From contig NW_025955007.1 of NCBI RefSeq assembly GCF_022376445.1, positions 62,001 to 126,000 on the forward strand: 64,000 nucleotides of DNA. Reading direction: 5' to 3'. The position numbers and the translations under genes are program-made. The notes under the pieces are model-generated. The model was not told the origin of the DNA and made no database searches. It saw only the letters and a program-made list of their open reading frames with translations. Of the stretch, positions 21,599 through 63,037 are shown in pieces; positions within the stretch are counted from its first letter, which is position 1, and every line of letters begins with the position of its first letter. Source of the DNA: Fomitopsis serialis (Eukaryota; Basidiomycota; Agaricomycetes; Polyporales; Fomitopsidaceae).

Positions 21599-21607
21599 TA
21601 TATAAAG
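21599..21607 (+). promoter_or_regulatory. TATA box of family 1 gene a
   Basis: TATATAAAG lies 35 bp before an ATG in strong context (ACCATGG, ATG at 21642). The same box and start are kept in copy 2 at 45014 and 45057. Confidence 0.6.
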
Positions 21608-21641
21608 CGCGGCCTGATATGTTCCTTCAAACATCGCGACC

Positions 21642-22540
21642 ATGGCCTTTCTCCGCTTCCTCGCCACTCTCATGGAGCGTGCAGCTGTCGTATTCTGGAG
21701 GCTTTTACCCTTGCTGAAGTCCGTTCGTTCTACTATCGTGTGGCGATTGTCGTGCTGATCATCGTGGAACAGTCGAACGGCCATTCCCCTCGTTAGGCGC
21801 ATGGAGCACGCTCTCCCGAGGCTTCCGCCGATTTTGAAGTTCGTCCATTATCCTGTCGTGCGCCCGTCGTCGCGTTGACCACCCCGGCCCAGCGGGACGA
21901 CGGTCTGGTTTGCTCAGGTCGTACCAAATATTCAGGCCCGTTCCTTGCACCTAGGTGAACAACTCAACTTCAACGAGGAGTGGCCAGGCGCGTTGATGTT
22001 CGTCCATCTGCCAAGTAATCGGTGTATGTGCACAGTACCACTCCGTTCCCTCAAATCTGATTCATAACATTGTACTGCTTACCAGTTGCACTTATTTGCC
22101 GTGGCACGGGAATACCAGGGACGAGGACCGCGGTAATCTTGAGCTCCCTTCAGGTCCGGGCTTATGAGGTGAGCTGCCAGCGGGCTGGAGTACGACCAGT
22201 GATTGACCAGCAACCGTAACAGACCTATTTAGTGATCCAGTGGTCTCACGAAGAGACTCAGATGGTGTATCAAGTCAGAATGGAGACGCCGGCCGACTTT
22301 TGGGCTCTTCTGCTGTGCTTTGGGCTACGCAGCACTGACGAAGGGTGGTCGCAGAACGCCTCAGTCGATCAGGAGTTAGCCCCACTCATTGCCGCATTCA
22401 CGGATTGCTTGGAATACGGGGCCTTTGGCGGGAAGCTTGCACTCGCCAACCTCCCTCGGTTGCTCCAGAGTAGGCGGGCTCTTTACATCGTGGCGTTCGT
22501 CATCGTCACCTTCTGCGCGATTTATTTACAAGTCATGTAG
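21642..22540 (+). CDS. family 1 membrane-anchored small protein (member a)
   Basis: The start is the ATG behind the TATA box. The first exon reads MAFLRFLATLMERAAVVFW, but its 3' end is uncertain. The remaining exons are clear: 21893-22023, 22086-22168 and 22223-22540, with intron phases 2 (inferred), 1, 0. Key motifs are SGTTVWFAQVV, GALMFVHLP at the exon 2 end, VILSSLQ in exon 3, and VIQWSHEE...MVYQVRM...DFWALLLCFGL in exon 4. A C-terminal membrane helix follows (ALYIVAFVIVTFCAIYLQVM). Other members: 40298-41080, 45057-45747, 48970-49559, 50110-50940. The beta-rich pattern closing with a helix that holds a Trp recalls a PH-like fold, but that is inference. The first intron would be about 150 nt, longer than usual. 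Confidence 0.6.
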
Positions 22541-35024: not shown

Positions 35025-38000
35025 ATGTCAACGGTAAGTTAGATCGTCTTTCTAGCTCGACTAGCACCGAATAACAGGGTATACAGAAACAAACCAACGC
35101 GGATGCGTCGGTATACCTCTGTCATTGTAGCCTCTGCGGTGATCAAACGGACGTAGATCGCCGTACCAACACAGTAGTCAAGGGCAAGTTCTGTGGCCGC
35201 AACAAGTACTACGACCACCTGAGGGACGAACGGGCACGAAGCGCGTGTTTACACAACGAAACTCGCGGGACCGGCTCGTCGAGTACAACCCGCGACCAGT
35301 GCATACAGAACAATCATGTTCATCAGCGATCGAGTCATCCTCCCCTTCCAAAACACAGTCCTACTCAGACTTCTTCTCCTGTGTCCCCGTCCCATACAGC
35401 ATCACGAGATTCGAAACGATCGCAGCGACAGGCTTATGGAGCAGGAGAGCCACATGATCTGGCACATCTGCAGTCTTTTGCGGATGCGTTGAACAGGCGA
35501 GCATCCTTATTGGCGGAGTCACACGATGTCCTTGTATTTCAGGAACCCCCAAATGCGTTCTCTGTCCCGGCTCAGTTGCTCCAAGCCGCGGCTGCTCAGG
35601 ACACCGAGGTCAACACAGGCAGTCTCGAGCTCTCTCGGGATGACGTACATAACACAGCGCTACTTGAATACGAACAGTGGCTATTGGAGTCGTACGTCAA
35701 ACTTGAACCGTACACCCAGTCCGACATCGCAGATGTTGCTCTCCGCGCGGACGAACTGCGGTACGACATGGGCCAAGCATTTGCTGAGGTCGAAAGCTGG
35801 AAGAAGGTCGAATGGGATCGGCAGCGCTGTGCAGGATTGGAGGACCTAAAGAGACCAACATACGGTCAACCAGGGGAACGGACGAGGGTCGATACAGGTG
35901 TGGCACTACGTCCTCAGTGGCGCTCCAGCTGCTAATGAGCGCTTGCACAGAACTCTACATGCGGCCGAACATATCTCAGTTTCATCCTATACTGCTATTG
36001 TGTTACGTGCTTGTCGCAGTGATGCATTTACTTTGTGGGGTATCAATTCGCCGGTGTCATTGGCTATTGGATTGCTTGAAGATGCTGCTGTCGATGACCT
36101 ACGAACACCTTCGCTCTGATACCGTTGCCTCGGATCCGTCATTCGAGAACATCATTTCAAGTGTTCCTGGAGATGCCAGAACGGTCGTTGAGCACCTCGC
36201 CATCTCGCCAAAAACGCGACCACATGTCTGCTGTCCTAGTTGTTTCGCATGCTACCCTATACAAACCGGCCGCGACTACCCCGACAACTGCACTGCGATT
36301 TTGTCCGGAGAATCCGTGTGCGGTGCTGAACTTCGTTGCAAACGCACCATCGGTGACCGCGAAAGAACGTTCCCCGCTCGACTCTATGTCTATCACGATT
36401 TCAAGGACTGGCTTGGGCGTCTTTTATGCAGGCCCGGGATCGAAGAGGTCATGGATCGCACTCTCACCGATGCTATGGACTCCAAAGGCGCCGATGCAAT
36501 CAAGGACTTCTACGATACCGCAACACTGCGAGAGCTCAAAGGCGCTGACGGGAACCAGTTCATCACGCGCGAAACGCCCGAGGGCCGCTACGTTTTCAGC
36601 ATCTGCATGGATGGATTTCTGCCCACCGGCAAAGGCGGCTCGGCGTCAGTGTCGGTGGGTGCGATATATCTCGCCTGCATGAACCTCCCCCTTTCAATTC
36701 GGTACCGTGAAGAGAATCTCTTCCTCTGCGGCATCATACCAGGGCCGCACCATCCGTCACAGGAAAAGATCAATCCTCTTCTAGGCCCTGTCATCGACGA
36801 CTTCCTCGATCTATGGTTTCATGGTGTCCGCTATACCCGAACTCCTGGCTTCTCATCCGGAAGGGTGGTCAGATGTATAATCGGCCCTCTCGTGTCTGAC
36901 ATGCTTGCCGCTCGCCAGATGGCAGGATTTTCTGGACACGGTTCCGATCTCTTCTGTTCGTTCTGTCTCCTGAGTATCTCGGAAATCGACAACCTCGAAT
37001 GGTGGAGTTGGCCACCGAGGACATGGGACAAGCAGCGCGCTGCCGCCGAGCGGTGGAAAGCAGCTAGTGACTTTGATGAACGCGCAAAGATACTTCGTGA
37101 AGAGGGAATTCGATGGTCTGAGCTCTTCCGACTACCTTACTGGGACCCTCTGAAGTTCACTGCCATCGATCCGATGCATGCGATCTTCCTCGGTTTGCTA
37201 TATCGACACTGCGACAAAGTCTGGGGTATGAGTTCTCTACACAAGGATGGACTCGAGGGCCGGGCACACGATCCGGCTGCGCATGCTCCATCAGATCGGG
37301 AGATGCAAGAAGCCTACATTCTCCTCAAGACTGGATCAGACACTGAGCTTGAGAAATTGCCGAAGGAGGTTCTCAGGACAATGTGCAAGGAGTTGAACCT
37401 TCCCTTCTCCGGACGGAAAGGTAAACTGCTCCATCGGTTACGTGCACATGTACGTTTTTTTTCGCGTGAAGTCAGGTTTCACGGTCACTGATCCTTCGTC
37501 CAGAAACGACAGAAAGGATATCCTGCAGGTATGGCACATGCGGCAAGTGGAGACGCACCACCCGCCGGCTCTGGCGGCCAATCCAGCGATGCATCTAGAG
37601 CCCCGTGGACGCCTTTCCAAGAATTTCAACTCCAAGAAGCTTCCCAAGCTCTTGAGACGAAGCAGGAATCGGTTTTGCGCAACAGCACCCACCCAGTTCT
37701 CGCAAAATTATGCACCGAGAAGCTCGGCGGGCCGCAGGCATCATATACTACACTGAAAAACTCCAAGCTACTTGCATTACTTGTCCGCTACGTATGTATT
37801 TGCTCTGTTAGGCATTGTACCCATTTGACGCGTGCTTCGCCGCAGATGCTGGAACAAGACGATTCGGGAGGTAAATCCCTCGCGAGTCCAGAGCGACCAG
37901 GCCGGGTCACGCAGTCTGGGCCACCCAGCAAATGGGAAGTCGATTTCGCCCTCGCTGCATTTGACTATGGCTCAAAATCGGATCTGCGAGGATTCCGAGT

Positions 38001-40297: not shown

Positions 40298-41080
40298 CTA
40301 GACCTCAGGTGCACGATTAGCTACGAGAACCGCAAACACGATACGCAAAACCAGATAAGCCATGAACATAACCCAACAGGTTTGGCGAATGTCGGTCCAC
40401 GTCAGCTCGTCGGCGAAAGCACCATATTCGAGGCAAGCCCTGAAATTGGCACTGATGTCTGACATCTCTTCGACAATCTCGTCCTCGGTCCCAGCATCAC
40501 TCTTGATGTCTGCATCAGACGGCGCTTCTGCTTTGTTGCGTTGGAGACACTGGACGAATGCTCGAAGATCCTGAGCACTGCAGAGCGTCACTTGATAACA
40601 GGAACGGTCGTCGCCGAGCTTATGTTCCCATTGTACTGTCAAAGTTTCCTAAGGACGTTGTAGATCAGATACAAGTCGGGTTATGTGCACAGACCACTCA
40701 CCGGTTGAGGAAAAATGACCGTGCTCTGCGGGAGGGGCAGTTGTAGTATATCAATGAACGGAGTGTTCGAATTTGGCGATAGTAAGATGGCATCTGAATA
40801 ACCGCAATCAGTTCTGCTGTATCATAGACAGCAAAATGAGTACCCACATTTCCCGCAGGACAGTCGCACAATGAGCACGGATATCGGCGCCTCAAGGTCG
40901 ACTGCAGGGCCACTCCGTCGTCCGATCTTCCTGAACTCATCCACCTCGCCAGCAAAATAGACGTTGACCCCGCTATGGTGTATAAGAGTAAGCCGTTAGT
41001 TGGTTCGCAGACCTATGGTACTCGCGGTGATGGTACTGACGCTGGGACTGGAGGTCCGGGTGGAAGCATGGCCAGGCCAT
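40298..41080 (-). CDS. family 1 membrane-anchored small protein (member b), 211 aa
   Basis: Exons on the minus strand: 41080-41013, 40972-40848, 40793-40702, 40648-40298, with intron phases 2, 1, 0. All introns are 40-54 nt with GT...AG, and the first has a CTAAC branch site. Motifs: SGVNVYFAGEVDEF (exon 2), ISVLIVRLSCGKY across the junction, PFIDILQLPLPQSTVIFPQP (exon 3), LTVQWEHK and YQVTLCSAQDLRAFVQCLQ (exon 4). An acidic linker (EDEIVEEMSD) and the shared word CLEYGAF (also in member a) precede a C-terminal membrane helix (VMFMAYLVLRIVFAVLV). A minus-strand TATA box lies at 41195-41202. This is one of the two cleanest members and looks intact. Tail-anchored topology is predicted. Confidence 0.75.
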
Positions 41081-41194
41081 ATTTGAGAGCGACAAAGACC
41101 ACGAGGAGGGTGATCATACTTTAGATCAACTGGGAGTGGATGAGACTGTGGGTGGATGAGACGAGGTGCCTTCGCTCTGGGCGTGAGCAGCGTT

Positions 41195-41202
41195 CTTATA
41201 TA
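41195..41202 (-). promoter_or_regulatory. TATA box of family 1 gene b
   Basis: Minus-strand TATATAAG, about 115 bp upstream of the ATG at 41080. Confidence 0.5.
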
Positions 41203-41828
41203 TGCCACCGGTAGCGTCGGCCGTGCTACAAGTATATTGCTTTGTGCGTTGTACATGAGGGTCAGCTGACTCCAACAATGCTATAGGCAACGTGGCTCGC
41301 CATTCTCCTCAGACTCGGAACGCATTGGGCATGATCCTATCCTTCACCGACTCTATAGCGGAGGCGTCAGAACACATTCGAATGTGACGGCGAACTGGAC
41401 GGGAATGCAAAGGGGCTCACAAGGCAATAATCCGGTGTCGTTTTCGCACACGACATGCACGGTGTCGAGTTCGTTTCGCCAATAACGCCAAGACCGACAT
41501 TCTTGATTTCTCGACCAGGCGTGTCATCATCCACAAACTGTGCAACAACAATACAACGCAGTGAGTGCAAGGTGAGTTATCAGGCGCCTCGGGGTGCATT
41601 AACGCGGCTCCCTCCGAAGATTGTGCGGTAGTCGCAGAGTATACGACGTAAGATGCATGCCGATGAGAGACTGGAGGAGACATGCAGAACCCGCGACAGG
41701 ATGTCGGGTCAGGAGCGACGGGGAGCGAATGGCACACGCAGAGAACGTTAACGCGCGAGCGGTCACGGAGTCATGTCGACTCACGACCGTCGATCACGCT
41801 CATCGCTCAAGCGCTCACAGGCGCTCAC

Positions 41829-44800
41829 ATGTCGCCCGACACTCGAGTCTCCTTTTCCTCCTCCTGAGCGCTGTCGCACTTTCCGACCCGGCTTCTGTCA
41901 TGGCCCCGCACGACCGAGAAGGCACTCGGTACTGAAGAGGTCGTGGGTGGCCAGCCTGTGCTCGCCCCCTTTCACGTTCTCTGCTGCGACTCCGCGCGGT
42001 ATGTGTTCCCGCGCATGGCGACAGATACAGTATCGTCTCATCGGACCCCTCAGCTACCAGGCCCACTCCCATACAGGTCGCTCCGCGGCAGATGGCTCAT
42101 CGAGGGCTCGTCTTATGTTCTCTTCTTCGACACCGGGAGCGAACACTCTCGCCTGAACGACTGGAAGGGCGGTAGGAGAGGTGCGTTCCCTGTCTGCTAG
42201 TCACCGTGCTCGTCTTAGCTCAACCTACGCTGCAGTACCTGATGCCTCAGCCCGACGTCGCCGCCATCCGTCAGTCGACACCGTCGTCGTCCGTCAGTCG
42301 ACACCGTCGTCGTCCGTCTGCTCGACACCGCAGCTGTCCGTCTGCTCGGCACCGCAGCCGTCGCGCACTTCAACGAATGGCAAGCCGGTATCGCCAGCCC
42401 GCTCCGCCGCGGATGTGACATTAACGTCGCTACCCTCATCACGACTCTCTCGACGCCGCTCGGCTGCTATCTCTGTGCCGTCAGCGTCGACTTCTGCAAC
42501 AACCTACAGTCCTTTGACGTCGACCACGAGGTCAGCGAGTGCGGTATCTACCACAGGCGCATCATCAAACGCATCGCCGCACACTACACCGACGTCCCAC
42601 GACTGGCATGTCGCCGCGTACGAAGTATGGAGCCGCCGCCTCGCGTTCGAGAGGCTCCGATCCGCTACGAACATTCAAGCGTGCCTAAGGCAATGGAGCC
42701 GGTGGTTCCGCTCTGCGCACGCCAGGAGGTCGGTACTCGGCGTGTCCAGATTGGCCAGCCAGCCGATGGTACCCGCGAACGGGGAGTGGCGGCGGTTGCG
42801 AGTGGGTCCTCATTTGCGCACCACTCAGTACCTCGCGGGGCAGAGGCAGGGACGTCAATGAGTTCCAAGACGAAACACGCTTAAGGTATCCGACAGCAAG
42901 AGTTTCGTTACCTCTCATGAAGTGACGATCACTCGCCCGTAATGTTCGGCCTGCTGCGGGCTTTCGCGTGGCATTTCCTCACCGCCGCTCCTGCGTCTCG
43001 TGTCTGAACCAGCATCACAGCGTCTGCGTCGCCGATCTCCATGTGTTTCCCGGACGAGCTGACTACATGTATGGGAAGCGTCACAAACCTACGTTTACAG
43101 TCGTCCGACTCGCGAAGGCGTGCTCCGCGAAGAGCGCCGCAGCCGTGTCAGAGCACCCATCCGTCGAGGCCAAGATGTCCGCTATCGCCCGCCGTCGCAA
43201 CTATATCGATGCGCGCGAAGGATCCGTCATCGTGTCGAAGTGGGGATTTGATCGTCTGGTAAGCCGCCATCGACCTCACAGGTCACTCACTGATGAGATG
43301 GACCGTAGTTACTTTGGTGGGGAAGAGCTGGAACCGCTCAGGACTCCTGGATAATGTGTCTTCTACCGCGTCAGAGTAAGACTGGGCGTTCTGCGGTGAG
43401 TCTCACGTCGTAAGTAACGACTCGCCGCTGACTATGTGTCCGCGCTCATCAGGCCTCCGCCTCCGAATCTCCGGCCTCCAGCATCACCTCCGACTGAGAA
43501 ACCCGGTTGACAGAGCTCGTCAAGACGTACATGCTCGTCGGTAGCATTGAGGTGACGGTCGCGCCGGACTTGTCGCCTGGTGCTCGATACTGAAGCTCGG
43601 TCTGTGCGGGCTGAACCAGACCGTATCCTGTGCTGGCGCTGATGCGCCTGAAGATCTTCCTGACGTGTACGCTTGCGTGACGGAGGAGACGATGCGCATT
43701 GTGGAGTGCGCCGTTACTGTCGCCAGTCAACGAAGGAGTCCGAAGGCCGCGGAGGTGCACGAGCGAGTCAGTTTTCTGGCTGGCGTCGTGGAGTATGACC
43801 GATCAATTGTGCTACGGATTAGCAGGACGCCGCAACGCCTCTTTCTGCAGGCGCCGCGCCGCGCACAAGTTGCCCGTCCCCACTGCTCATCTCCGGGTTG
43901 GCCCTTCCGGCTCAATTCAGGAAGCGACTCTCCTCTTGTCGCCCCTTCCGACACCACCGTACTCACATTCAGCCAGCCCCAGCACCGCTGCCAAGAGGAC
44001 GTCGACGCAGAGAGCGAGGGACGTGCCCGCGAGCCGTCTGGAGCTGGTGTGGTCTGATTCCGATGACAGAGGCTGCTTTGATGCCAACGTTCGTCTGGCG
44101 GAGTGGTGTTTGGTGCTCGGCGGTCTTATCCCTGCCCACGGGTGCGCCGCACATACTTCTCGCTGCCATGCCCTGGGTGTGCACTCGCACGGCGAGGCTG
44201 ACACGAGATTCACCAGTCCACGCTCTGAACGCCTGCTTCGCCGGGAAGGGGTCTCAGTATGAGAATCTGCGCAGCCGGTCTTTGTCAATTCGTTCAACTT
44301 GAAGTAGGATGTGCTTCCGGCTGCCATCCCCGCAAGTATCCTCGCGCGGTACTCCCCACGGTACATCTTTTAGGGTAACTGGCGTCTTTGGCAGCTGTCC
44401 ACCACGGACAGAGCAGTCGAACCGGCTGCCAATGCTATGTACCGGCAGCTCGTATGGGAGTATGTGTACACCAATCCCGGACGCACCTTCGGGACGATTA
44501 TCTACGACAGCGGGGAGCTCGCTGCAGGTCTCGCGCTCGCCGCTGACACCTAACGCCTCCGGTGCGCCTTCTGTTCCTCTCAGCTTATGGACACCTCGCC
44601 CACAAGCGACACGACGGGGCTTCGCCTCTCTGGCTCTCCCCGTTTGCTGGCGACGTCTTAGCGGACGCTGAAAGCTGAGGTCTGGGGTGCTTCCGAACTC
44701 ACTCAAGAGGCTCGGAACATCCGCACAATATATGCCGCCCGCAACAGAGCTGTTGATTTCGCTGTTGATCTTTTCGGCCTCACCGTCGTCGCTCTGCGGA

Positions 44801-45013
44801 CTACCTAGCTCGAGCGAAGGAGGCCCGGTCGCACTCGCACCGTCGGCACTCGTGTTGCGCACGACAATGCAGAGTGTAATAGGGCCAGACATTCTCCGGC
44901 TCGTTCGGCCGGGACTAAACTCAGCGAGTGCGTCCCGGACATTGTCCTTCCAGGGTTCTATTGTACAGAGACAATGGAGCTCTTGGAGAATCAGAGCATG
45001 CCTGCGCGTGCCA
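41829..45013 (+). pseudogene. coding block B-D, copy 2
   Basis: Same content as 18406-21598, including the in-frame TGA after the first codons and the duplicated 23-bp unit. Extra 1-bp deletions break the ATG-initiated 106-codon exon (GTGGGC to GTGGC) and the following exon (CTCCCTGG to CTCCTGG). If these are real, this copy is more damaged than copy 1. Confidence 0.4.
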
Positions 45014-45022
45014 TATATAAAG
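45014..45022 (+). promoter_or_regulatory. TATA box of family 1 gene c
   Basis: TATATAAAG, identical in position and context to 21599-21607. The ATG in ACCATGG context is at 45057. Confidence 0.55.
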
Positions 45023-45056
45023 CGCGGCCTGATATGTTCCTTCAAACATCGCGACC

Positions 45057-45747
45057 ATGGCCTTTCTCCGCTTCCTCGCCACTCTCATGGAGCGTGCAGC
45101 TGTCGTATTCTGGAGGCTTTTACCCTTGCTGAAGTCCGTTCGTTCTACTATCGTGTGGCGATTGTCGTGCTGATCATCGTGGAACAGTCGAACGGCCATT
45201 CCCCTCTTAGGCGCATGGAGCACGCTCTCCCGAGGCTTCCGCCGATTTTGAAGTTCGTCCATTATCCTGTCGTGCGCCCGTCGTCGCGTTGACCACCGCG
45301 TCCCAGCGGGACAACCGTTTTCTTCGCTAAGCACGTTCTCTCCTGCCAAGCCATCGCGCAGGCGGAGAATGGCGAACTGCAAATTGATAACAGTGACGGT
45401 GGCGCCTTGCTCATCGCCCTGCTGCCGTGTGATCGATGTATGTACAGTCTCCAATGACAGTTCTCTGGTTGATCTCAGAAATTGCCACGGTCGGAAGTCG
45501 CTGCGATATGCCGCCGGTCGGTTGACAACGTGGAGCCACTGTTATGGTCCTTGCCAATTCGACCAGTGTCGTTGTTTCTGAGGTGCGTTCAAATGATTAC
45601 TTACTGCCGTGCACAGTTGAACACCGATGCAGCACAATTGACGGTTTGTTGGCTCCACGAAGAACACTTTACTGGTATTCAGTCAAACTCCAGACGACAG
45701 AAGACTTCTGGATGTTAACCAGGTGCTTTGGCATGAAAGCTGCATGA
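45057..45747 (+). pseudogene. family 1 gene (member c), probably disrupted
   Basis: The first exon is the same as in member a because it lies inside the duplicated segment. From 45307 the protein diverges but aligns: SGTTVFFAKHVL, GALLIALLPCDR (exon 2, ending 45437 at GTATGT), then RPVSLFL, LTVCWLHEEH and YSVKLQTTEDFWMLTRCFGM. The expected exon 3 join creates a stop (T+AA), and the last block switches frame between HEEH and YSV. It stops at 45747 without the C-terminal membrane helix. It could be rescued by unusual splicing, but decay is more likely. Confidence 0.5.
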
Positions 45748-46090
45748 TGCCTGCCACATTGGCACTCGCCCTGTCCCTGCCGTACACGAGCTCACTACGC
45801 TCGTGGACAAATTCGAGCATGCTTGGCATATGGGGCTTTTGGGGAGAACCTGGTCCATGTTCGACAGTTCTGTCTCTGCGTGTTGGTGTACCTTCGGTTG
45901 GCACTGACTTGCTATCTTCTCTTGTGTGGCATGATTGTTTCCTATGGACTTGTTCTATGGGCTTGTTCTTAGCATCATGGAGGGTACTCTTGGCTGATTG
46001 TGTGTTTCACAAACTTCTACATCACTTCTGCTCTGTATGTACTTTATTGCTGTTTGCAAAAGTCTTGTCGCGGCGCCAAAATCACAAAAA

Positions 46091-46260
46091 GTTCGCACGA
46101 CGCGACCTTGCGGCCTCTTGCTCAGAATCGCTGTTTCTCGCTCAATTCTCAACGTATTGGCTCGGCAACTACAGCGTTCGATTCGCCTCGGTGAGACGCA
46201 GCACCTGGTATGAAGAACATGGCAAAATTCGAAGGTCTCAAAATCTCGATTTTCGGGTGC
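46091..46260 (+). repeat. 170-bp direct repeat, unit 1
   Basis: Matches 46402-46567 at roughly 80% by eye. Shared words are CCTCTTGCTCAGA, TTTCTCGCTCAATTCTCAAC, GAGACGCAGCACCTGGTAT and CTCAAAATCT. The period is about 310 bp. No stable frame. Confidence 0.65.
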
Positions 46261-46401
46261 GCGCGCGAAGGAGAACGGCGGCGGCGAGCGGAGGAGAGGC
46301 CAGGGAGCGTCGGGAATGGCTGGGACATGTTTGGTTGGGTAGTATGCAGTGCCCAAAAATGCGATGGTGAGTTTCGACCGCTCTGTTCTGTTGCCCGCGA
46401 G

Positions 46402-46567
46402 GTCTTTGACGCGAAACGCGACCTCTTGCTCAGAGTCGCGGTTTCTCGCTCAATTCTCAACGTATCTGCGCGGTGAATACAGCGTTCGAATCGTCTCGCC
46501 GAGACGCAGCACCTGGTATAAAGAACACGGCAAGATTCGCGAAACTCAAAATCTTGATTCCCGGGTG
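46402..46567 (+). repeat. 170-bp direct repeat, unit 2
   Basis: Second unit of the pair at 46091. It begins GTCTTTGACGCG and ends near CCCGGGTGAGG. The 140 bp between units is unrelated. Confidence 0.65.
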
Positions 46568-47244
46568 AGGCACAGAGGCCTAGCTATGTATGCCCTTGGC
46601 CTGAATTCCTCTTTACTTTCTATCCTTCGTCCTCAAACTGAGTAACGCCCGGTCATCTGCATACTACCACTGTACCAGCCTGATTTTCACGCACACACCG
46701 GCGTCGAGTGGATGCATACATGGTCCCTTGGTCTATTCCCGACAAGCTTCAAGTTCCTGCTTCTCTCACTTCTCGTCTTACCCTTACCTCGGTGGAGGCC
46801 TTGTAATGGATGTGCATGCTTTCTGTACACTCTGCTGATATCCCCTGTATTGCCTTCCTATAGATCTTACATCTATGTCGCCGGGCGTGGTTAAGGCCGT
46901 CGTAAAATGCTATCCCCGTACCGGACGGATTCGCGCGGTCCATCAGCCTCTCGAGACGACACCAGGCCTAACCAGGCTATGTAGTCGCTGAACCGAGAAC
47001 GGCACGCGGGCGACGAGTAGGGCTAACAGCGTGTCAAGGACGCCACCTGCGCGACGGTCGCAGATTCCGGCTCAGCAGGAGTGGTCTGCAGAACAAGCAG
47101 CGCCCAATTGCGCTTCTTGCTCGTGGGACCTTCTGGTACGAGCAAGATGTTCATGAACATGACGGTAAGTGTCGTTTCGCGTATCGAGTAAGCATACTGA
47201 CTGGTATTCTCACAGCTAATGACCCTGCTTTTAACTGCCCAAAG
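46568..47244. other. no gene seen
   Basis: Short frames only. 46700-46900 is pyrimidine-rich. The stretch just before 47245 shows no coding continuation of the Hsp104 relic. Confidence 0.35.
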
Positions 47245-47600
47245 CCAAGATACGTATCGACGGCTCCGAATACTCTGGGAAGCACTCCATCACACGTCTC
47301 ATTGGTGCTCCTCCGAGCTACGTCGGCCGCGACCAGGGCGTCCAGCTCACGGACTACATCCGCCGGAAGCCGAACTCGATCGTGCTCAACGATGAGATTG
47401 AGACGGCCTCGCGCGAATTCGTTGCGCTCTTCCTGCAGGTATTCGACGACGGTCCGCTCACAGACGGTCAAGCTCGCGTGGTTGAGCAACCTCAGCGCGA
47501 TGTGTCCCCGTCAGGCCCGAGACGCGCAAGCTCGTCATGGGCGCGACCCGCGTACATTCCCGCGTGAGTTCATCACTTTGGAACCGCGCTCAGCAGCGTC
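47245..47600 (+). pseudogene. Hsp104/ClpB fragment (second AAA+ domain)
   Basis: The plus frame reads AKIRIDGSEYSGKHSITRLI, GAPPSYVGRDQGVQLTDYIR, RRKPNSIVLNDEIETASREF, LFLQVFDDGPLTDGQARVV. This is the stretch from the pore loop through Walker B to sensor 1 of the second ATPase ring of Hsp104/ClpB disaggregases. The Walker B hydrophobic run has Asn (VLNDEIE) where a hydrophobic residue is expected. After ARVV a segment is missing. A later piece (RPETRKLVMGAT, then FPREFIT) is recognisable but in two frames, meaning deletion plus frameshift. No Walker A and no other domains are present, so this is a relic. Confidence 0.75.
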
Positions 47601-48969
47601 TGGTACGTGCTATTCTCGGAGGTCTGAGAGGTGGCGTCGGGGGTGGTGGGCGAGTCGAGTGAGTCGTCGATGGGGCGCGGAGGGAAGTTCGAGGCGGGAG
47701 GAGTCTCGGAATCGTGGCAGACGCCAGAAGTACTTAGGTGGTCGCCGCTTCGTGATGATACAGTGCCCTCGCGCACAGTCGCCTGTAGTCGACCATACGA
47801 GCGCCTACCGATGTCCGGTGCTAGCTAGCCTTCAAGTTCTCGGACCTTGAGACGTCCGTAACGCGTTGCAGCTAACTCAGCATAGAGCGTGAATTTGAGG
47901 ATCCCCTACCAATTTACTCTACAAGCTGAGGCGTGGTTTTTTTTGCATGGTGGTCAAAGAATGGTCCGACCGTTCGACATAGACGAGTATTGGACGAGTA
48001 TCAACTTGACACCTGATTGCTACTGCATGTCCCCACCTGCGTAACTTCTGGTTTCTAATGACGTGGGCCTGCGTTGAGTCCTGTAGCTCGATCCCACTGC
48101 CTCATCAAAATACACCATGCACCCGCCGCTGCAGAGCGCAGAGCAAGAGAAATGCTGTAACTCGGGCTGCGTGCATGCACGCCAACTGTCCTTCGCCTCG
48201 CGCACGCCCTCAAGTACTGCCACGAACGTTGCCCGGCACGCCCGACCCTCTACTCCGCATTACTTCTTGACCTTCCGCTACCCAGACATCGGCCGAGTAC
48301 GTTGTGTCCTTTCGTTCCCCGCGCAATAGCCAGCTACCGCCCTTCGCGCTTAGCTTACGGGTCAATGCCGACCACTGTGATCTCGTGTGGCCCTATAGGC
48401 CCCCCTGGGACCTCTCCTGGCAAGATGTAGGGCCGCGGGCGCGATGATCCGGCGAAACCACTGCGGATCTCTGCGTCCTCGCACTCTTTGAGGGACTCGG
48501 AGAAGAGATGCACGTACGTACAGTGTCTCCCCTGCCCCTGTCACATGACATTAATATCAACCCTTCGTTAGGTGTGGATGTCGCACGGCGACCAGCTCTC
48601 CGAGCCGCCGGTAGACTCTCATTTTATCGATGCAGACGATGCAGTCCGGGATCGACGTCACTTTGCAACTTTGTGATCGCTGCTCAAGCTATTGACAATG
48701 TCTCCTCTACACGGAGTACAATGTAAGTCATTGGCATTGAAGTCCTACGGAGTGAAACAAAGCAACGGGTACGCACATTCACATAAAAGCGGGTGAATGG
48801 TGTTATCGCATGTAATTGTTCAACTTTTCAAACTCTTCAGACACCACCAGCAGTTCGCGGATGACGTTCAACACCAACTCTTCTAGTGTTTCGCAGCCTC
48901 CTTCCATAGAGCTGAGAGAAGTATCTCCAGATGAAAGGTGTGTCTTCTTCGCATGAACCGTTGAGTTTG
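47601..48969. other. no gene seen
   Basis: Frames are short and not coding-like. 47934-47944 is a T run. Upstream exons of the family 1 gene ending at 49559 may lie after about 48800. Confidence 0.35.
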
Positions 48970-49559
48970 ATAGTCTCACTGGTAATAGGCAATTCCTGTT
49001 CATGTTGTACATAGGGCAAATCACTTTCGGGGCAATAGGTCTGTACCTTGGGAACGAAGGCGATGAGCCTGTCGACTTTAGCAAGAAAGCCAGCATCATA
49101 TTTGTCCGCCTCCCAAGCGGGTATTGTGAGTGGCGCTGCATCCACGTGTTCTCACTATGTGACGTGTTTTTCTAGTCGTCTTGATGGTGAAGGCCAAAGA
49201 CTCGAGCCCTGGAGTCGATGATAGACTCCATACAGTAATGTTGACGGCGGAGGTCTCATTCCGGTTTGACGAGGTATGTCAGGCTAAGTCTTATCTTGGC
49301 TAGGCTCACTCGCGCACACACACAACAGGATCCCCCGACGACGCAATGGCTGCAAGAAGGCAGCTCATTTACCATCCACTTCGATGACTGCGACGGATTA
49401 AGGGCCTTGATGCGCTGCATCCTCATCGCGCGGTCTGCTTGCACCGCAGTCAACACTGAGGTTGCTCGAGATGAGGCCGATACTCTTCAAGCACGACTGA
49501 AACACATGGACGAAGCAGCGATCATTGCTGCTATAGAGACCTCGACGGCAAAGGTCTAG
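48970..49559 (+). CDS. family 1 small protein (member d), 5' end not resolved
   Basis: Clear exons: one ending at 49125, then 49176-49273 and 49329-49559, with intron phases 1 and 0 as in members a, b and e. Motifs: FGAIGLYLGNEGDEPVDF, SIIFVRLPSGY at the exon end, FVLMVKAKDSSPGVDD and VMLTAEVSFRFDE in exon 3, TTQWLQEGSSFTIHFDD and GLRALMRCIL in exon 4. Unlike members a, b and e it lacks the C-terminal membrane helix. It ends with a soluble helix (DEAAIIAAIETSTAKV). The first exon and ATG lie upstream and could not be fixed, so the start given is only the beginning of the readable frame. Confidence 0.55.
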
Positions 49560-50109
49560 TTCACGCCCATTATTCGGTGTCATTCATGCCTTATCCTGAT
49601 ATGTGTTCACCGCACCTTCTACCTGTGTAACACTCCCGACGACGCCTCTCCCGTCGGACCTTAATATTTCATTATTTAATCTGATCCCATGATCGGCCCT
49701 TACTATATGACATGCGCGCCACGAAGGCTTCACGTGTGACGTGTCACACATCGAACACGCCAGGGCGTCTAGATGTCGTGACTAAATGGACTACCGTCCT
49801 CCTCCTCCTCCTCCTCCTCAAGGACCGCGGTCCTTCCGATTGCCCGAGTCGACTAAGCTTTTCCTAACCAACCCTCATCGTCTTCCATGGACGCCTTATT
49901 TCTATTGTGGCGTCGATGACTGGGGTCCGTGAGTGGCCGGGACCGCATTTGCAGCGTCCGAGCGTTCCCAGTTATCTCATTGGCTTTTCCCCAGCATTGT
50001 CCTCTTCCGTCGAACAGAAATGGGCGATTCCGCGGATAAAGCAAGGTCATGGCGCGGACGGTAAATAAAGCTCCCTCATTCCTACACCGCCTCCGTTGCG
50101 ACGACCAAC
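49560..50109. other. intergenic between family 1 genes d and e
   Basis: Contains a CCT microsatellite at 49798-49819 and a TAAATAAAG at 50062-50070, about 45 bp before the next ATG, which may act as its TATA element. Otherwise no gene. Confidence 0.4.
49798..49819 (+). repeat. CCT microsatellite
   Basis: Seven perfect CCT units in a non-coding stretch. Confidence 0.8.
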
Positions 50110-50940
50110 ATGTCGAACTTTCACAAGTTGCTCAACATGATCTTGACGAGTATCCGACGCCTCCCATTTTTTAGAAAGAACATTCCCGGGTGAGTGAGCG
50201 CGTGTAGCTTACCTTGCATGTTTGCTGATCACTTAATGGCAGAGTGGCAGAAGTATTGTTCAGAGGGCATGTCGACGACGCGAAGTTACACTTCAGCAGA
50301 GCCCTCATGCAACACGACCACTACGAACTCTGGGATCCAGGTCAGTTGACTGTCGCTCGTTTAACCGGAGGGCCATGTAGGTCGTAGCCATATTCCTTCA
50401 CCGCGGTGGCTCACCCCTTCCCAGATATCATCCTAGTGGAGCCAGATGAAGATTACCCACCTATTCTGCGCGTTCCCTTTCGCTTGATCCCAAACGAGAT
50501 GGTCATTACCGTCAATCAGGTGCGGTGGCTCTCATCAGCAGGGATGAGATGTGCCAGCTAATCACCTGCAGTAGAGCGAACTCACGATTTTCGGCGAGGT
50601 TCCAGACAACGAGGACGAGTTTCTCCACATCAAGGCGGGAGATGACAAGACGTTGTGGGTAATCGCTCAATGTTTGGCCCGTCATACGGCCGACGTTGAA
50701 CGTCGAGAGCGCAACATCCGTGCCCAGATAATGTCATTCCGGCTGTTCTTGTTCGAGGACTCAGAGGAGCGGCGATCGGTGAGGCGTCCCTCCGTCCTCT
50801 CAAATATCGCATATCGTCTTCTGCGTGTCGGAGTGGCTGCGGCTGCAGGGGTAGCCATGGGTGTTTTCGCGCTTGGTGTATTCACGCTTAGTTCATGGAG
50901 TCGCCAGTTGGAAAACATAGTCCGCAGTGCACATATGTAA
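50110..50940 (+). CDS. family 1 membrane-anchored small protein (member e), 212 aa
   Basis: Exons 50110-50189, 50243-50340, 50425-50519 and 50575-50940 have intron phases 2, 1, 0. Every join is in frame with GT...AG borders. Exon 1: MSNFHKLLNMILTSIRRLPF, an amphipathic basic start. Exon 2: VAEVLFRGHVDDAKLHFSRA. Exon 3: IILVEPDEDYPP and LRVPFRLIPNEMVITV. Exon 4: LTIFGEVPD, FLHIKAGDDKTLWVIAQCLA, then a charged linker and a strong membrane helix (VGVAAAAGVAMGVFALGVFT) near the C-terminus. The last strand plus Trp-bearing helix is PH-domain-like in pattern (inference). The length and phase identity with member b (211 aa) are the best support for a true family. The last acceptor is TAG at 50572-50574, because the CAG just before it gives an immediate stop. 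Confidence 0.75.
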
Positions 50941-51906: not shown

Positions 51907-52663
51907 AAAATGGCTTCAAAGCTGTCGCCGATCTTGAGTTATGGCGTGCGGGCCCATGGGCTAGTTTGTTTATTCCCTTAAATGTCACTGAGGGCGCCAT
52001 GGGTTAGGATCCACCCGAAACGCGTTCGATCTAACGCCCACCTCACCCGACAGAGTCTCAGCGTTTCCATCGGCCAAATTCACGGTGCGTTCAGGTGCGA
52101 GTGAGTCTTTGGCGCAGCTCCCTGTGTCCCTGTCTCGTCGCCGTCGCCGTTGCGGCCACGGGCCGACTCTTGTTCACTGTCCGCCTCGGAGATCCTCGAA
52201 CAGTGGGACGTTGCTCAATAGGCGAACACTGAGCGAACAGCCCGGTAAGTGCTATAAAGCTCCCGATTGACCCTACGCGTACGCGACCTTCGCATGTGCT
52301 ACGTCAGCTGATCACTCCGAGGCACCAGATACTCATAGAACAATGAAACGCATGCCTGATCGCACCGGATTGACATCCCAAATTCAACAGAACAGTGAGT
52401 CATGGCTTTGATTTGATCGGAGGAGAGCTTGATAGCTGGTCTCCGGCAGACAGACTGTCAGAGACACGACCGTAGACTCTGGCACGACCGACCGTCGTGA
52501 CTGTCATATCTGTGGCGGTACCGGCTCACTTACCGCGTGCCGGTCACGAGTTGCGTACCTGCTCTACCAAGTACAAAAACCCACAACGCGGCGGAGACAA
52601 CATCAAACCACGGAAACTTTCCAGCGGAACTTACACTCTACGCGTTTCACAGCTTCTACCGTC

Positions 52664-54032
52664 ATGACTACCGGCACCGTCGAAGAGCCATACACCGCCG
52701 AGAATCCGTTGTCCGCTGAGGAGCCGTCGACCGCTGAAGCTGAAGAGCCGTCGACCGCGGCAGAGCCGTCGATCGCTGAAGAGCCGAACAACACACCTTC
52801 GAGGCCCATCTCGCCATTGTGCTCGGCGACGCCTGCGGTCGGACTACGAGATCTCGAAGAAACGGTCGCCCTCCGTCGTGCGCCACTGCAGTCGGTGGCA
52901 CCTGTGGTCGGACTACACGAAGACACCGTCACTCTGGATCGTGAGCAGATACGGCAGGCTCTGTTCTCTGGTGCCTCAGTCATTGTTTCCTACATGGTAG
53001 ATGTTCTACGCATCGCTTTTCGGTGGCTCAAGAGGCCGTTGGGCGTCCTCACCTTTGTCGTGCTCCTGGTGATGATAAGTTGCCACGTCGCTGGGAAGCT
53101 CAGCGACATGCTTTCCCCCGTCTGTCTGCTTCCGGGCATCTCATCAAGCATGGTCTGTGCTCGTTATGCACCGAACATACTCGGCGTGGGGAAGACATCA
53201 AGGTTAGCGGGGGTCGGCAAGGTCGTCGAACTGCACAGCCACTTCGAGGCAATCATGGATGCCAATCGATACACGAATGGAATCAGCCTAAAACTCAAGC
53301 AGTCGGAGGTTGCGACGCGCGACTTGGTTACGCTCGTACGCGCCAGTGACCTGAGGAGCCGCGATATCCTCGCAGAAGCCCTGATGGAGTTGGTGAAGGA
53401 CGCAAAGAAGGCAGGCGAAGGGCTGTACAGGCTCAGCGCGAAGATTGACGGCGCGGTAGATCGGTGAGCCGTAGATCCATCCGTCGTACAATGCCTTGCT
53501 AATTGTACACTTCAGCATCGTGGCCGTGAACGACCACGCCATGCTCACAATTGAAGCCGCGACAGTCAAGGAGGGCTTGCTGCCGTGGCTCGCGACGACT
53601 CTCATGCCCCATCTTGCCACCGGCGCGAGCACTGTCGTCCGCTCGTATGCCAATGTAATGGAGACGCTGGTACACGAGACCCAGCGCATGCTCTCCATGG
53701 CAACTACCAGCGCCGCAGACCTTGAGCAACTCCAGGGACACCTCCTGACAATACATGAAGTCTGCTTGCGAGAGGGAATCTTCGGTGGAAACCGTTATGC
53801 GCGCCAGACGAACGAGGCGCATCTTGCGCTCCTCAAGGAAGCCCTCGCCCATGTAATCGCAACGCGAGATGCGTTACAAATGCTGGTCGCAGATGTGGAG
53901 GAGCTGCGGGACCGCTCGGCCGCACCTGGCATTGTAGGTGAACGCGTGCCGGTGGAGGCGTTGGTTCGGAGCGTCAGTTATGGCATTGAACGGCTGAAGG
54001 AGGGGCGCCGGGCGACAAACAGTGCGTATTGA
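52664..54032 (+). CDS. gene A3: single-pass membrane protein, 438 aa, near-identical copy of A1
   Basis: Exons 52664-53463 and 53516-54032 with the same 52-nt intron as A1. It is 12 residues shorter because the Glu-Pro repeat tract has fewer units. From NNTPSRPISPLCS onward the protein is identical to A1 as far as I can see, including the membrane helix and the SPVCLLPG motif. The TATA box of A1 is changed to TACAAAA here, so expression may differ. The 5' flank is clearly more diverged than the coding region, which points to recent homogenisation. Confidence 0.75.
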
Positions 54033-56239
54033 CGAGCAAACTATTGGCTGCTGCGGGCGATCGTTTGGCAATCAAGAGTGATTGAGTACTGTGAGTAGTC
54101 TATGATACGTCCCGCATCTGCATATGTCTAAATCAGTACTCGCGTGCTATGTTTCGTACTGTTTATACCATGACGGTTCACTGACGGACACACGTCCGAG
54201 TCTGCGTCATGGTGTAATTAACGTCGTCTGCCATCGCACCTAGAAGCATGTCCGTGCTTGCTTACGATTGGCAGTCAAGTTCTGCGCTCAGGCCTCGGGG
54301 TCGGAAGGTCGACGGCATCCGTACATCTTGGCTCGTTGCGTCGGATCTTCGTGTAGAAGAATGAACGGGCGAGCAACTGCGGACAAACGTGCGCTCGCAC
54401 AAGCAGGATATGTATTTCTTTGCGAAGGAGGTACAGCTGTCTAGTAAGTGTTTGGTCAGTTGTTGGAGATGGATATCGCTAACGGCTTGGCGTTCACTCG
54501 CCTGGTCTAGGCCTGTTCAGTCTGAGTTATCGAGCGACACTCGGCTCGCGGTCGCAGACCCGGGGGGGGGGGGGTTCCCTGAGACTGGAATACCCGCCAT
54601 CGGCGACAACGACCGGGCTATCGAACTCCCACTCGACGCGTCCTCACTGGATCGCCAGACAGACCTAGTGATGTCTGGTTGAGCGGGGTGGAAAGCTCGA
54701 CAACCCGAGACTCTTCTGTGTCGAGTGAATCATACCTGGTGCGAGCCCTCCGTCAGCTAAGCCTGTTTGTACATTGCTCCTGCCAGCACCCCGTGAGCGC
54801 AGAACTTACCTGGCTAGCCGCACAGTCTTCAAACATCGGGTGGAACAGTACTGGCGCCGCCGTTGGTTCCGCGCCCAGGATCGTCGCGCAGCGGCCGCGG
54901 ACTCAGCCTGTGGCGCCCTCTCCCTTGCATCGCCGCGTTGCACTATATCCGATCGCGCCAGGTAGTGCGAGCCACTATACGACACAGTTGCACGAGCAAT
55001 TGGTGCGGTTCGTGAACTTTGAAGCTGGTCGAGCGCACCGGACTTGCCGTCACTGGAGCCTTGACAGCGACGTCGACATATCAGGATACCGGTGAATCTG
55101 AGCAGTGTTGCGACTCCTAAGCGAGTTACTATACTATACCAACAGTAGCAGTGGTGTGGACTCCGTACCGAAATTCGAGAATATGATGCAGGAGCGCTAG
55201 CCTGGGGACCACACGTGATGGACTCAGACACGTTCAGGCGACGACCGCATTCACGCTCGTCGCTCATGTCGCCCGACACTCGAGTCTCCTTTTCCTCCTC
55301 CTGAGCGCTGTCGCACTTTCCGACCCGGCTTCTGTCATGGCCCCGCACGACCGAGAAGGCACTCGGTACTGAAGAGGTCGTGGGTGGCCAGCCTGTGCTC
55401 GCCCCCTTTCACGTTCTCTGCTGCGACTCCGCGCGGTATGTGTTCCCGCGCATGGCGACAGATACAGTATCGTCTCATCGGACCCCTCAGCTACCAGGCC
55501 CACTCCCATACAGGTCGCTCCGCGGCAGATGGCTCATCGAGGGCTCGTCTTATGTTCTCTTCTTCGACACCGGGAGCGAACACTCTCGCCTGAACGACTG
55601 GAAGGGCGGTAGGAGAGGTGCGTTCCCTGTCTGCTAGTCACCGTGCTCGTCTTAGCTCAACCTACGCTGCAGTACCTGATGCCTCAGCCCGACGTCGCCG
55701 CCATCCGTCAGTCGACACCGTCGTCGTCCGTCAGTCGACACCGTCGTCGTCCGTCTGCTCGACACCGCAGCTGTCCGTCTGCTCGGCACCGCAGCCGTCG
55801 CGCACTTCAACGAATGGCAAGCCGGTATCGCCAGCCCGCTCCGCCGCGGATGTGACATTAACGTCGCTACCCTCATCACGACTCCCTCGACGCCGCTCGG
55901 CTGCTATCTCTGTGCCGTCAGCGTCGACTTCTGCAACAACCTACAGTCCTTTGACGTCGACCACGAGGTCAGCGAGTGCGGTATCTACCACAGGCGCATC
56001 ATCAAACGCATCGCCGCACACTACACCGACGTCCCACGACTGGCATGTCGCCGCGTACGAAGTATGGAGCCGCCGCCTCGCGTTCGAGAGGCTCCGATCC
56101 GCTACGAACATTCAAGCGTGCCTAAGGCAATGGAGCCGGTGGTTCCGCTCTGCGCACGCCAGGAGGTCGGTACTCGGCGTGTCCAGATTGGCCAGCCAGC
56201 CGATGGTACCCGCGAACGGGGAGTGGCGGCGGTTGCGAG
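54033..56239 (+). pseudogene. coding block B, copy 3, truncated
   Basis: Repeats 17181-19381 with the same in-frame TGA and duplicated 23-bp unit. It is cut in the middle of the exon corresponding to 18880-19466, so any gene B product here would end in unrelated sequence. Part C-D of the block and the family 1 gene are missing. Confidence 0.45.
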
Positions 56240-57071
56240 TGCCAGCCCTCTCGCGCCCTCCTGCCCTCTCACCCTCTCTTGCCCTCTCGGCGTGCCCTCC
56301 TACTCGCTCTCACCTACCCACCCGTTCTGTTCTTGCTGCCTGCTCTCGCCCTCACTAGCTTGTTTGCTCGCCCACTGCCTCGGTCGCCCTCGCCGCCTGC
56401 TTGTCCGCTCCCATCCCCCACCTTGCCCCCTCGCCCGTCTCACCTGCTTGCCCGTCTCACCCGCTTGCCCGTCTCACCCGCTTGCCCGTCTCACCCGCTC
56501 GCCCTCCCTCGTCACGGCCCACAAGCAGCTCGACCCCCCACTCAGGCGCGGTCTCCGCATCGTCCTCCTGCTCCCTTGCGCCATCACCAGCCCTGGGGAG
56601 CGCGTGGGCACGCTACCGCTCGCGGAGCGCTACCTTTCCTCCAACTCGCGCCGGGCGTGCGCACGCTGATTGGCAAGGGCGCGCTCGTGGTCGTCGCGGG
56701 CCCCGGCGAGGGCATGTGCGGGCGGGGGAGGAGGCGAGGGCGGTGAGGAGCGCGAGCAATTATAGCTACTATGCGGATGTGCTCCGTCGCAATGACGCCA
56801 AATAAGTCTGCAAACTTGCAGCACGTTGCGCAGACAAATGGCCCGCTTGCCGTGGCCATATCTTGATGTCTCGTATACGGACGAGTTGGTGAGCCATACA
56901 TCTTGGTGGCCACACGTCGGGGCTAAGGGAGGATTGTCACTCGGGGGTCGTACACTGCTGGGTGGCCTCATAGCAATACGTCCGACACTATGCTTGTACT
57001 TCCCCTCGAAGACGGCATCGATAAAACGAGGATATAGCTACCGTGAATTCAGTCGAAATTAAGGATAATAT
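56240..57071. other. C-rich low-complexity stretch, then no gene
   Basis: 56240-56520 is dominated by CCCTCTCGC/CCCGTCTCACC words. 56520-56760 is very GC-rich with fragmentary coding texture that I could not assign. The rest holds no supported frame. Confidence 0.4.
56443..56505 (+). repeat. 17-bp minisatellite, about four units
   Basis: The unit CGCTTGCCCGTCTCACC is repeated head to tail (first unit begins TGCTTG, last is partial). It lies just beyond the right break of segment copy 3. Confidence 0.75.
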
Positions 57072-60039: not shown

Positions 60040-61559
60040 CTACAAAGACTCAATCTCGCTCCGCATTCTGCTTGATTCGGTCCATAGTACTACGTACCTC
60101 GATATACCTCGTCCACGCGAGTGTGGCATCTTCCGTGCAACAAGCTTGTCCCACCGATCGTACTGTTTTCCAAGTGTTGAATCCTTTGCAATAAGCGCTC
60201 TGTCATGTATCCGATTGCCGTTCTCATGGTCAATGCCTAAACAGACGCCTTTTGACGCAAGAGTACTGGAGAACTGCTCCTCCTGCAGTATGCTGTCCAA
60301 TCGCCCCATGACATCATCCTGTTCCATTGTCGTCAGCAATCCGTGCAAGTCATCGGCCGCGTGGTCTGTCCGAAGTATGAACATGACAGACATAGCCTGG
60401 AAGTGTTTCGAGCCGATGAGAGACACAATATGCGGGACCCATGGCCATACTGTGAAGGGGTGGTACAGGTAGATCTCCAACTTCCACAGGTGGTCGTAGT
60501 GCGAAAGGTTGTAATGTCGCTCTGTAGGCAAGAAACAATCAGCTAAGCGCCTCGACTCTCGAGAGGGAACTGAGATGACTTTCCGACTACGCTATCAATT
60601 GTACCATCACGAACAGAAATATTGAAATCAAAATCAAGCGCAAGCGTCTCTGCAGATGTGGAACTCGCATCTAGCAGATTCTGGCTTCTGCTGGCTCCCG
60701 AGGATGTATCCAACCTGTAGTCCACCACAAGCCAGAGATCGCGCACCCGGGAAGTCCGGCTGATCTGCAGGAAGAGGTCCTCGACTGCTGGTGCAACCCT
60801 TTGCGCTGCGACTTGGAGAGACTCCAGATTTGCACAGTCACGGTTCAGTGGGAGGAAGGCCTGGGAGACTTGCTGTTCCTGAAAGCAGGCAACCCCATCG
60901 CACCATAAGCACCTAAGTTGCGGGAGTGCTGAAACGAGGCGGGACAGCTGGGCAACGCTCGACAAGGTGGCATTGCGGATGAATAGAGTCTGAATGGAAC
61001 TGAACGCAGCTAGGTAGCGGATGTCCTCCGTTCGGACCGAGCCGATGGTCCACTCCGCATCTTCAATGCTGAGCATTGACAACCTCGGAAGCTTGCCCGC
61101 GAGCATGGCGGCAAACGTCCCAAGGTGTCGGATCGGTCGACGCTCCCCGGGAGAGTCACCCGATATGATGACCTCTTGAACGACCTCACGGAGGCGTGGC
61201 CTTTCGCGGAGTGTCTTGGAGAGCGAGAGAACATCCTTCCGGTCTCGCAGATGGATGCGTCGACGAAGATGAGACCATGTCAGGTAATACCAGTCTCGGC
61301 ATACGAGGGCGCAGGAAGTGAGAGAGGCCAGACGTGGATCACCCTTTGTAATCGGACGATAATCGAATGCCATTCCCATCGCGATGTGGTCGATGATCCG
61401 CTCACAGACCTTCGCAGGAAGCAGCCGAATCCGAGGACCATGAGAGAAACCTTCGGACATCTGCTGTGCGTGTGTGCCAGGATGCAATGACCTGTACACG
61501 TTATGCCTCCAGCTCGCGTGTTCTTGAATGTTGTGCACAGTGCTCCATTGAAGGGACAT
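60040..61559 (-). CDS. F-box protein (tandem copy 1), about 476 aa
   Basis: Exons 61559-60611 and 60521-60040. The intron (GTGATG...ACAG, phase 1) is placed at the same site in the neighbouring paralogue. An F-box-like domain lies near the N-terminus: IRLLPAKVCERIIDHIA, then SCALVCRDWYYLTWSHLRR. The rest has leucine-rich-repeat texture (LPRLSMLSIEDAEWT, ALPQLRCLWC). The second exon is conserved as HYNLSHYDHLW, IVSLIGSKHFQAMSVMF and MEQDDVMGRLDSILQ. F-box proteins link substrates to Skp1-Cul1 ubiquitin ligases, and basidiomycetes carry large variable sets of them. The first 34 codons may instead be an intron ending at the CAG before MSEGF, as the paralogue suggests. Confidence 0.7.
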
Positions 61560-61586: not shown

Positions 61587-63037
61587 TCATAGTAAGGCTA
61601 CATACCTCAATAAACCTTGTCTGTATGAGTATGACATCTTCCGGCTAACAAGCACGTCCAACCGGTCGTACCATTCTCGGAGTGCTGACTCCATTATGAT
61701 ATACTCGTCGGCAGATTGCCGATTGTGGGCAACATTGTCAACGCCAATACAGACGTGGCATGACTTGGATGCAACAGTACTGGAGAAGTGTTTCCCCTGC
61801 AGTATGCTGTCCAATCGCGTCAGAACATCATCCTGCTCCATTTCCGCCAGCATTCTGTCCCAATCATCGGCCATGTAGTCTGTCGCATGCCTAAACATAA
61901 CAGACATAGCCTGGAAATGTTTCGAGGTGATGCGAGACACAATATGTGGGATCCAGGGCCATGCATATGCTGCGAAGGGGTGCAGCCGGATCTCCAACTC
62001 CTGCAGGTGGTCGTAGCGTGAAAGGTTATAGTGTTGCCCTGTAGACATGAAACACTCAGCCAAGTGCCCAGAAAGAGAAAAAAGAAGACTTTCCGACTAT
62101 GGTATCAATTGTATCATCACGAACAGGAGAACCGAGACCAATATTGAGCATGACCCTTTCTGCAGATGTGCAACTCGCATCCAGCAAAGTCTGGCTTCTG
62201 CTGGCCGCCGAGGATGGATCCAACTCGCTGTCCACCGCAAGTTCTAGCAGCCGCACTCGAGACGCCCGGCTGATCTGCACGAAGAGGTCCTCAACTTCTG
62301 GCGCAACCCATTTCACATTGAGCCACTCCAGATTTGCACAATTCAGTGGAAGGGAGGCCGGTGGGACTTGCTGTTTCTGCAAGCAACTGACATGGAAGCA
62401 CCAAAAGTCCGTAAGCCGCGGGAGTGCCAAAATGAGGTGGGACAGCAGAGAAACACTGGACAAAATGACGTTGCGGATGGTCAGAAAGCCAATGCAGCTG
62501 AACGCAGCTAGGTAGCGGATGTCCTCCATTCGGACCGAGCCGGTGGTCCATTCCGCATCCTCGATGGTGAACCTCCACAACCTTGGAAGCTTGCCCACGA
62601 GCATGACGGCAAACACCCCCAGATGCCGGATTGGTTGACGCTTCCCGGGAGAAGCACCCGATATGATGACCTCTTGAATGAACTCACGGAGGCGTGGCAT
62701 TTTGCAGAGTGTCTTGTAGAGCGAGAGGACGTCCTTCCGGTCTCGCAGATGGATGCGTCGGCGAAGATGATGCCACGTCAGGTAATACCAGTCTCGGCAT
62801 ACGAGTGCGCAGGCACTGAGAGTGACCACGTGCAGCTGTCCCTCGGTAATCCAGCATCCAAAGTCCACCCTCATCGCGACGTGGTCAATGATCCGTCCAC
62901 AGACCTCCACAGGAAGCCGCGGGGTCGAAGGGCCCTGAGAGGAGCCTTCGGAGGTTGCGGTCGTCCTGTAGGTTTATGTGTGAACCGTATTACCCGCTTT
63001 CGCACAGTGACACTTACATCGACTCGACTGTGTCCAT
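61587..63037 (-). CDS. F-box protein (tandem copy 2), 438 aa
   Basis: Exons 63037-63018, 62965-62121 and 62038-61587. The 20-nt first exon (MDTVES plus two bases) ends at a perfect GTAAGT, and the join gives MTTATSEGSSQGPSTPRLP. F-box-like region: VEVCGRIIDHVA, SACALVCRDWYYLTWHHLRR. It is similar along its whole length to the gene at 60040-61559, including IHLRDRKDVLSL, EDIRYLAAFS and the last exon (HYNLSRYDHLQ, SKHFQAMSVMF, EQDDVLTRLDSILQ). Head-to-tail tandem duplicates, both apparently intact. The identity of the F-box rests on the LPxEV...CxLVCRxW pattern and on context. Confidence 0.75.

Follow-up and report, generated by a model that had tools for sequence, protein, structure and literature searches.

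The window analysed here, a 64,000-nucleotide stretch of Fomitopsis serialis (C412:62001-126000 in an assembly of 66.2 Mb and 806 contigs), a brown-rot fungus of the order Polyporales, carries five members, a to e, of a small-protein gene family. In the reading favoured here, with slightly better than even confidence, the family encodes a docking domain of the EVH1/Ran-binding type within the PH superfold, which is held at a membrane in a, b and e, is free in d-type members, and binds a peptide or protein partner. Homology, the intron plan, coding constraint, the fold class of the b-type and d-type members and the membrane segments are established by computation. From these we infer that the domain faces the cytosol, that its ligand is a protein rather than a lipid, and that it acts as an adaptor.

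Family members and the common intron plan

A family hidden Markov model (HMM), whose rows include the members themselves, was searched against all six-frame pieces of at least 25 amino acids of the window. It recovers the five members listed below and no other match below E 0.4, so the count of five in the preliminary description stands.

Member a: 21642..22540, plus strand; exons 21642-21751, 21893-22023, 22086-22168, 22223-22540; 213 amino acids; C-terminal membrane helix.
Member b: 40298..41117, minus strand; exons 41117-41041, 40972-40848, 40793-40702, 40648-40298; 214 amino acids; hydrophobic N-terminus, PH-like domain (about residues 27-140), C-terminal membrane helix.
Member c: 45057..45970 (end approximate), plus strand; broken, with frame breaks and a stop.
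Member d: 48861..49559, plus strand; exons 48861-48937, 48989-49125, 49176-49273, 49329-49559; 180 amino acids; PH-like domain, then a helical tail in which hydropathy reveals no clear membrane segment.
Member e: 50110..50940, plus strand; exons 50110-50189, 50243-50376, 50425-50519, 50575-50940; 224 amino acids; PH-like domain (by homology), C-terminal membrane helix, about 18 residues beyond the helix.

In a, b, d and e, GT-AG introns interrupt the frame in phases 2-1-0, which upholds the shared four-exon design claimed for all readable members. The introns measure 48-68 nucleotides in b, d and e and 141, 62 and 54 nucleotides in a, where the first is the least certain and stands without outside support. 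Protein identity among these four members is 21-26%, as low as first described, and intron positions can link proteins even at this level.

Single-protein genome searches and fetched loci add 23 loci outside the window to the five inside, giving at least 28, a count in which both haplotypes may be included. The weakest real locus scores 119, compared with 40-56 for DNA of 17 loci when reversed; locus L050 (C202, intronless, with internal stops) was excluded because its score of 57 lies at the level of these controls. The intron aligner worked from nothing but a protein, the GT-AG rule with splice-site preferences, and introns of 40-150 nucleotides. In 22 of the 28 loci (18 of 24 when a, b, d and e, which served as queries, are set aside) it places phase 2-1-0 introns at identical columns, and L015 also has them with another query. 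The remaining five loci, partial or broken, keep some of the introns: the second and third in L022 and L072, the first and second in c, the first in L030 and the second in L071. Near-identical loci (L010, L011 and L012; e and L002) mean that the independent cases are fewer. Extra introns are placed near the ends, two in L003 and one each in L016, L035, L043 and L045, and L071 departs from the 2-1-0 rule with an intron of phase 2 that lies three residues away from site 3.

The b-type profile group (nine rows, including member a and excluding the public protein P0002) matches the d-type group at E 2.1e-11 and the e-type group, of two rows, at E 3.8e-8; the direct comparison of d-type with e-type is not significant (E 0.026). 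Reversed-profile controls yield E 0.29-0.64 across groups and 0.003-0.02 for a group against its own reverse. Judged from these profiles, homology is beyond chance in two of the three group comparisons.

The gene models of b, d and e are corrected, those of b and e by comparison with public proteins, which are themselves predicted models and not transcripts. The start of b, previously placed at 41080, moves 37 bases upstream to 41117, because the identical public protein P0001 (B0H18DRAFT_1120444) begins MITLLVVF; exon 1 (41117-41041) then encodes the hydrophobic MITLLVVFVALKYGLAMLPPGPPVPA, and intron 1 is still in phase 2. The start assigned to d at 48970 falls inside the first intron of that gene and is replaced by 48861. 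For e, an exon 2 ending at 50340 (donor 50341) is set aside in favour of the end at 50376 (donor 50377) of the public model P0008. The longer exon adds GQLTVARLTGGPY and forms LTVARLTGGPY, a strand and turn matching those of b (SVLIVRLSCGKY) and d (IIFVRLPSGY); with this correction, e conforms to the description of exon 2 as ending in a shared strand and turn. The score of the C24 paralog rises from 535 to 611 with the longer exon, and the match between the b and e profiles improves from E 2.6e-4 to 3.8e-8 once both e-type rows are lengthened. P0008 diverges from the e model after residue 171 and is without the membrane tail, which the C412 and C24 paralogs of e retain.

Three word-limited searches, one of them restricted in its scoring to the 7997 candidates with the most words in common, gave 14 public proteins: 12 from F. 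serialis, one from Rhodofomes roseus and one from a metagenome source. None of these 14 is identical to d, and none that bears the name of another species is of the d-type or e-type. Nine of the 13 compared with the gene models agree at all three junctions (P0002, P0003, P0006, P0007, P0008, P0010, P0011, P0012 and P0014), with P0008 not independent for e because it was used to correct that gene. P0001 corrected exon 1 of b, P0013 has another exon 1, and P0009 and P0005 agree only partially; P0003, P0007, P0008 and P0009 differ from the gene models at one end.

The ratio of nonsynonymous to synonymous change (dN/dS), a gene-wide average in which selection at single sites is invisible, lies at 0.15-0.56 in 13 of 14 copy pairs, which share sequences and are not independent. 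The remaining pair (L010/L011) has no synonymous change and no ratio, and synonymous change is close to saturation in d/L035, e/L003 and L043/L045 (dS 1.05-2.4). These values speak for coding constraint. In a tree of 23 rows, the R. roseus protein P0004 joins four F. serialis genes in a group at 100/100 that excludes b, d and e; the d-type and e-type genes are clades at 100/100, and a and the C546 gene lie on long branches. With a midpoint root, on which the age claim depends, several subfamilies predate the split of Fomitopsis and Rhodofomes. The family had been proposed to be old and retained, and the intron plan in 22 of 28 loci, the dN/dS below 1 in 13 pairs and the relative in another genus support this.

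Predicted fold and proposed mode of action

The predicted models from two separate alignments, b-type and d-type, both adopt the PH superfold. The 50 VIA rows listed for each model are domains of this superfold; those listed for the d-type model, the better of the two, are EVH1, Ran-binding, Dcp1 and CARM1 entries. The d-type model consists of seven long strands followed by a helix, and the b model has the same seven strands and helix plus one short extra strand. These predicted models align along the full domain with solved structures of EVH1/Ran-binding-type members, at a level above that of unrelated models. The PH-like domain suspected in the preliminary description is therefore found in the predicted b-type and d-type models, and e is PH-like by homology.

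At the C-terminus, hydropathy (the best 19-residue window in the last 60 residues) reaches 2.35 in a, 2.41 in b, 2.18 in e and 1.23 in d. Beyond the hydrophobic window lie 18 residues in e, seven in b and none in a. One membrane helix near the C-terminus, the mark of a tail anchor, is predicted in a, b and e and not in d. The tail anchor thus agrees with hydropathy in three members, and for b also with the model, subject to the caveat of a hydrophobic N-terminus in b. Tail-anchored proteins lack a signal or membrane segment at the N-terminus, where hydropathy is 0.46 in e, 1.35 in a and 2.02 in b. With d predicted to be soluble and c broken, the endings are those originally described.

In the proposed mode of action, the folded part of the protein, a single PH-superfold domain whose seven strands are closed off by a helix, would be encoded by exons 2 to 4. 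Two variable parts would flank it, an N-terminal piece of its own from exon 1 and a tail from the last part of exon 4. The tail membrane helix of a, b and e would hold the domain at the membrane, and the d-type tail would be soluble and helical. The domain would dock a peptide or protein partner, which the membrane-bound members would fix to the membrane, the soluble members acting as the free counterpart. A PH-superfold domain of the docking kind, membrane-held in a, b and e but unanchored in the d-type, would best suit an adaptor.

Lipid binding and a luminal b-type domain are the main rivals to the docking reading. In the former, which is improbable but carries some weight, the PH-like domain would bind a membrane lipid and the anchored protein would touch a second membrane, as at membrane contact sites. 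The combination of a PH superfold with a membrane anchor is compatible with this, as is the PH domain of Akt1 in the Foldseek list for b, since PH domains such as that of Akt1 bind phosphoinositides. However, the EVH1, Ran-binding, Dcp1 and CARM1 domains that make up the rows listed for the d-type model act on proteins, and the fold is common to the soluble d-type members. Somewhat less probable again is a topology in which the hydrophobic N-terminus of the b-type is a signal or first membrane segment, so that the domain would be luminal or extracellular and would recognise its partner there. N-terminal hydropathy is 2.02 in b, 2.01 in P0002 and 2.44 in C423_42k, among others, and all seven rows of the b-type alignment keep C132 and C170 of b. 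The feature is nevertheless not general, because the e-type rows score 0.16 and 0.46 (the latter e itself) and the d-type rows -0.22 to 1.40; member a scores 1.35. Solved domains of the PH superfold, moreover, are mostly cytosolic or nuclear.

We consider it unlikely that the genes are functionless debris of repeats and segmental duplication, their plan conserved through shared ancestry only. Breaks or stops in c, L030, L071 and L016 (a single stop in the last), the incomplete L022 and L072, and the near-identical repeats around a and c would suit such an origin, but the dN/dS of 0.15-0.56, the 24 of 28 loci aligned without internal stop and the R. roseus relative argue against it. Some observations qualify the account of an old, partly tail-anchored family of docking domains: the Foldseek list for b also includes lipocalins, SsgA-like proteins and others; the N-terminus of b is hydrophobic; and an alternative root on the branch of P0004 itself would remove the pre-split age, although it needs much faster divergence of d and e.

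Genomic location, repeats and neighbours

The 28 loci lie on C412 (8), C24 (5), C434 (4), C168 (3) and C423 (3), with one each on C147, C98, C323, C501 and C546, contigs that make up 3.9% of the assembly. The d-type loci of C24 and C168 are 81-84% identical in pieces inside and beyond the gene. A copy of e, inverted relative to the window, lies at the start of C412 (L052:16-1597), 93.9% identical over 16-1378 and 84.9% over 1414-1597. The mating-type B locus was rejected as the location: the 53 matches to the pheromone receptor (PF02076) fall on C734, C370, C287, C541 and C223, five contigs where no family member was found. Equal-score receptor matches on C541 and C223 are the reason for suspecting a double haplotype count. 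The telomere pattern, searched with regard to a subtelomeric location, was found nowhere in the assembly.

Overlapping near-identical repeats (98.2-99.9%) occupy 15432-21898, 41828-45312 and 52323-56241. Exon 1 of c and its upstream DNA, within 41828-45312, are a 99.8% copy of 18410-21898, before and at the start of a; the copy ends near the start of exon 2 and the remainder is a diverged family member, so that c looks chimeric. The repeat at 18410-21600, upstream of a, matches strongly at six places, its own included, all on C412 and four of them partial, with weak matches on C804, C597 and C346. The possibility that the family is the transposon gene of this repeat was rejected; the family is not simply the repeat, because it occurs on 10 contigs and the strong repeat places lie only on C412.

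A second membrane/helical protein family is present in two near-identical copies, at 15611-17180 and 52436-54032. The six loci that match it best (E 4.8e-40 or better) lie on C412 (two), C168, C434, C423 and C24, all contigs of the first family. It also matches, more weakly, a fragment on C412 and sites on C90, C212, C157, C721, C81 and C623, six contigs on which the first family was not found. Copying of one ancestral segment would explain the linkage of both families without shared function. It is a long shot that the PH-like proteins and the second family form two halves of a variable membrane recognition system in a few genomic islands; if true, this would be a paired system, for example for self/non-self recognition between mycelia, or a receptor with its adaptor. 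Should the docking role and the link with the second family both prove true, wood-decay fungi would have a new membrane adaptor system.

Other features of the window are as follows.

12198-12602: WW-domain-like open frame, E 1.8e-5, just under the Pfam cut-off.
35788-37491: Transposase_21 (tnp2) match, E 6e-10, plus a SAP-like stretch under its cut-off.
47247-47462, between c and d: fragment matching an AAA domain (PF07724, E 1.2e-19), presumably ClpB/Hsp104-like.
60543-61559 and 62056-62973, minus strand: tandem F-box-like open frames, DNA 77% identical; the latter is above the Pfam cut-off, the former is not.

Relation to described families

A Pfam scan of 11 proteins at E 1 (b and e in their uncorrected models, with P0008, which has the corrected exon 2 of e, also scanned) returned no match above cut-off, including EVH1 (WH1), Ran-binding and classical PH; the only match is Y_Y_Y in d (E 0.0086, 16.4 bits versus a cut-off of 26.6). 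PDB sequence searches with b and two alignments gave nothing meaningful, and no account of the family was found in the open-licence literature, judged by titles. The preliminary description, which knew of no described family with this design, is to that extent confirmed. The family is real, of a known fold class, and absent from the profile library and literature searched. The public records listed for it, the B0H18DRAFT_ proteins of F. serialis and C8Q71DRAFT_885595 of R. roseus, are members or relatives that carry no domain or function. Unnamed and partly mis-modelled proteins are thereby united as one family that is recognisable by its intron plan, has a predicted fold open to testing and comes with a working hypothesis.

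In conclusion, the closest likenesses are those of predicted fold. The family resembles the EVH1/WH1 domains of Mena, Homer and Spred, in which aromatic groove residues bind proline-rich peptides, but differs from them in having no sequence match and in the terminal membrane anchors of a, b and e. It likewise resembles the Ran-binding domains of RanBP1, RanBP2, RanBP3 and Nup2, from which it is set apart by the absence of a sequence match, by its partial membrane anchoring and by its multiple copies.
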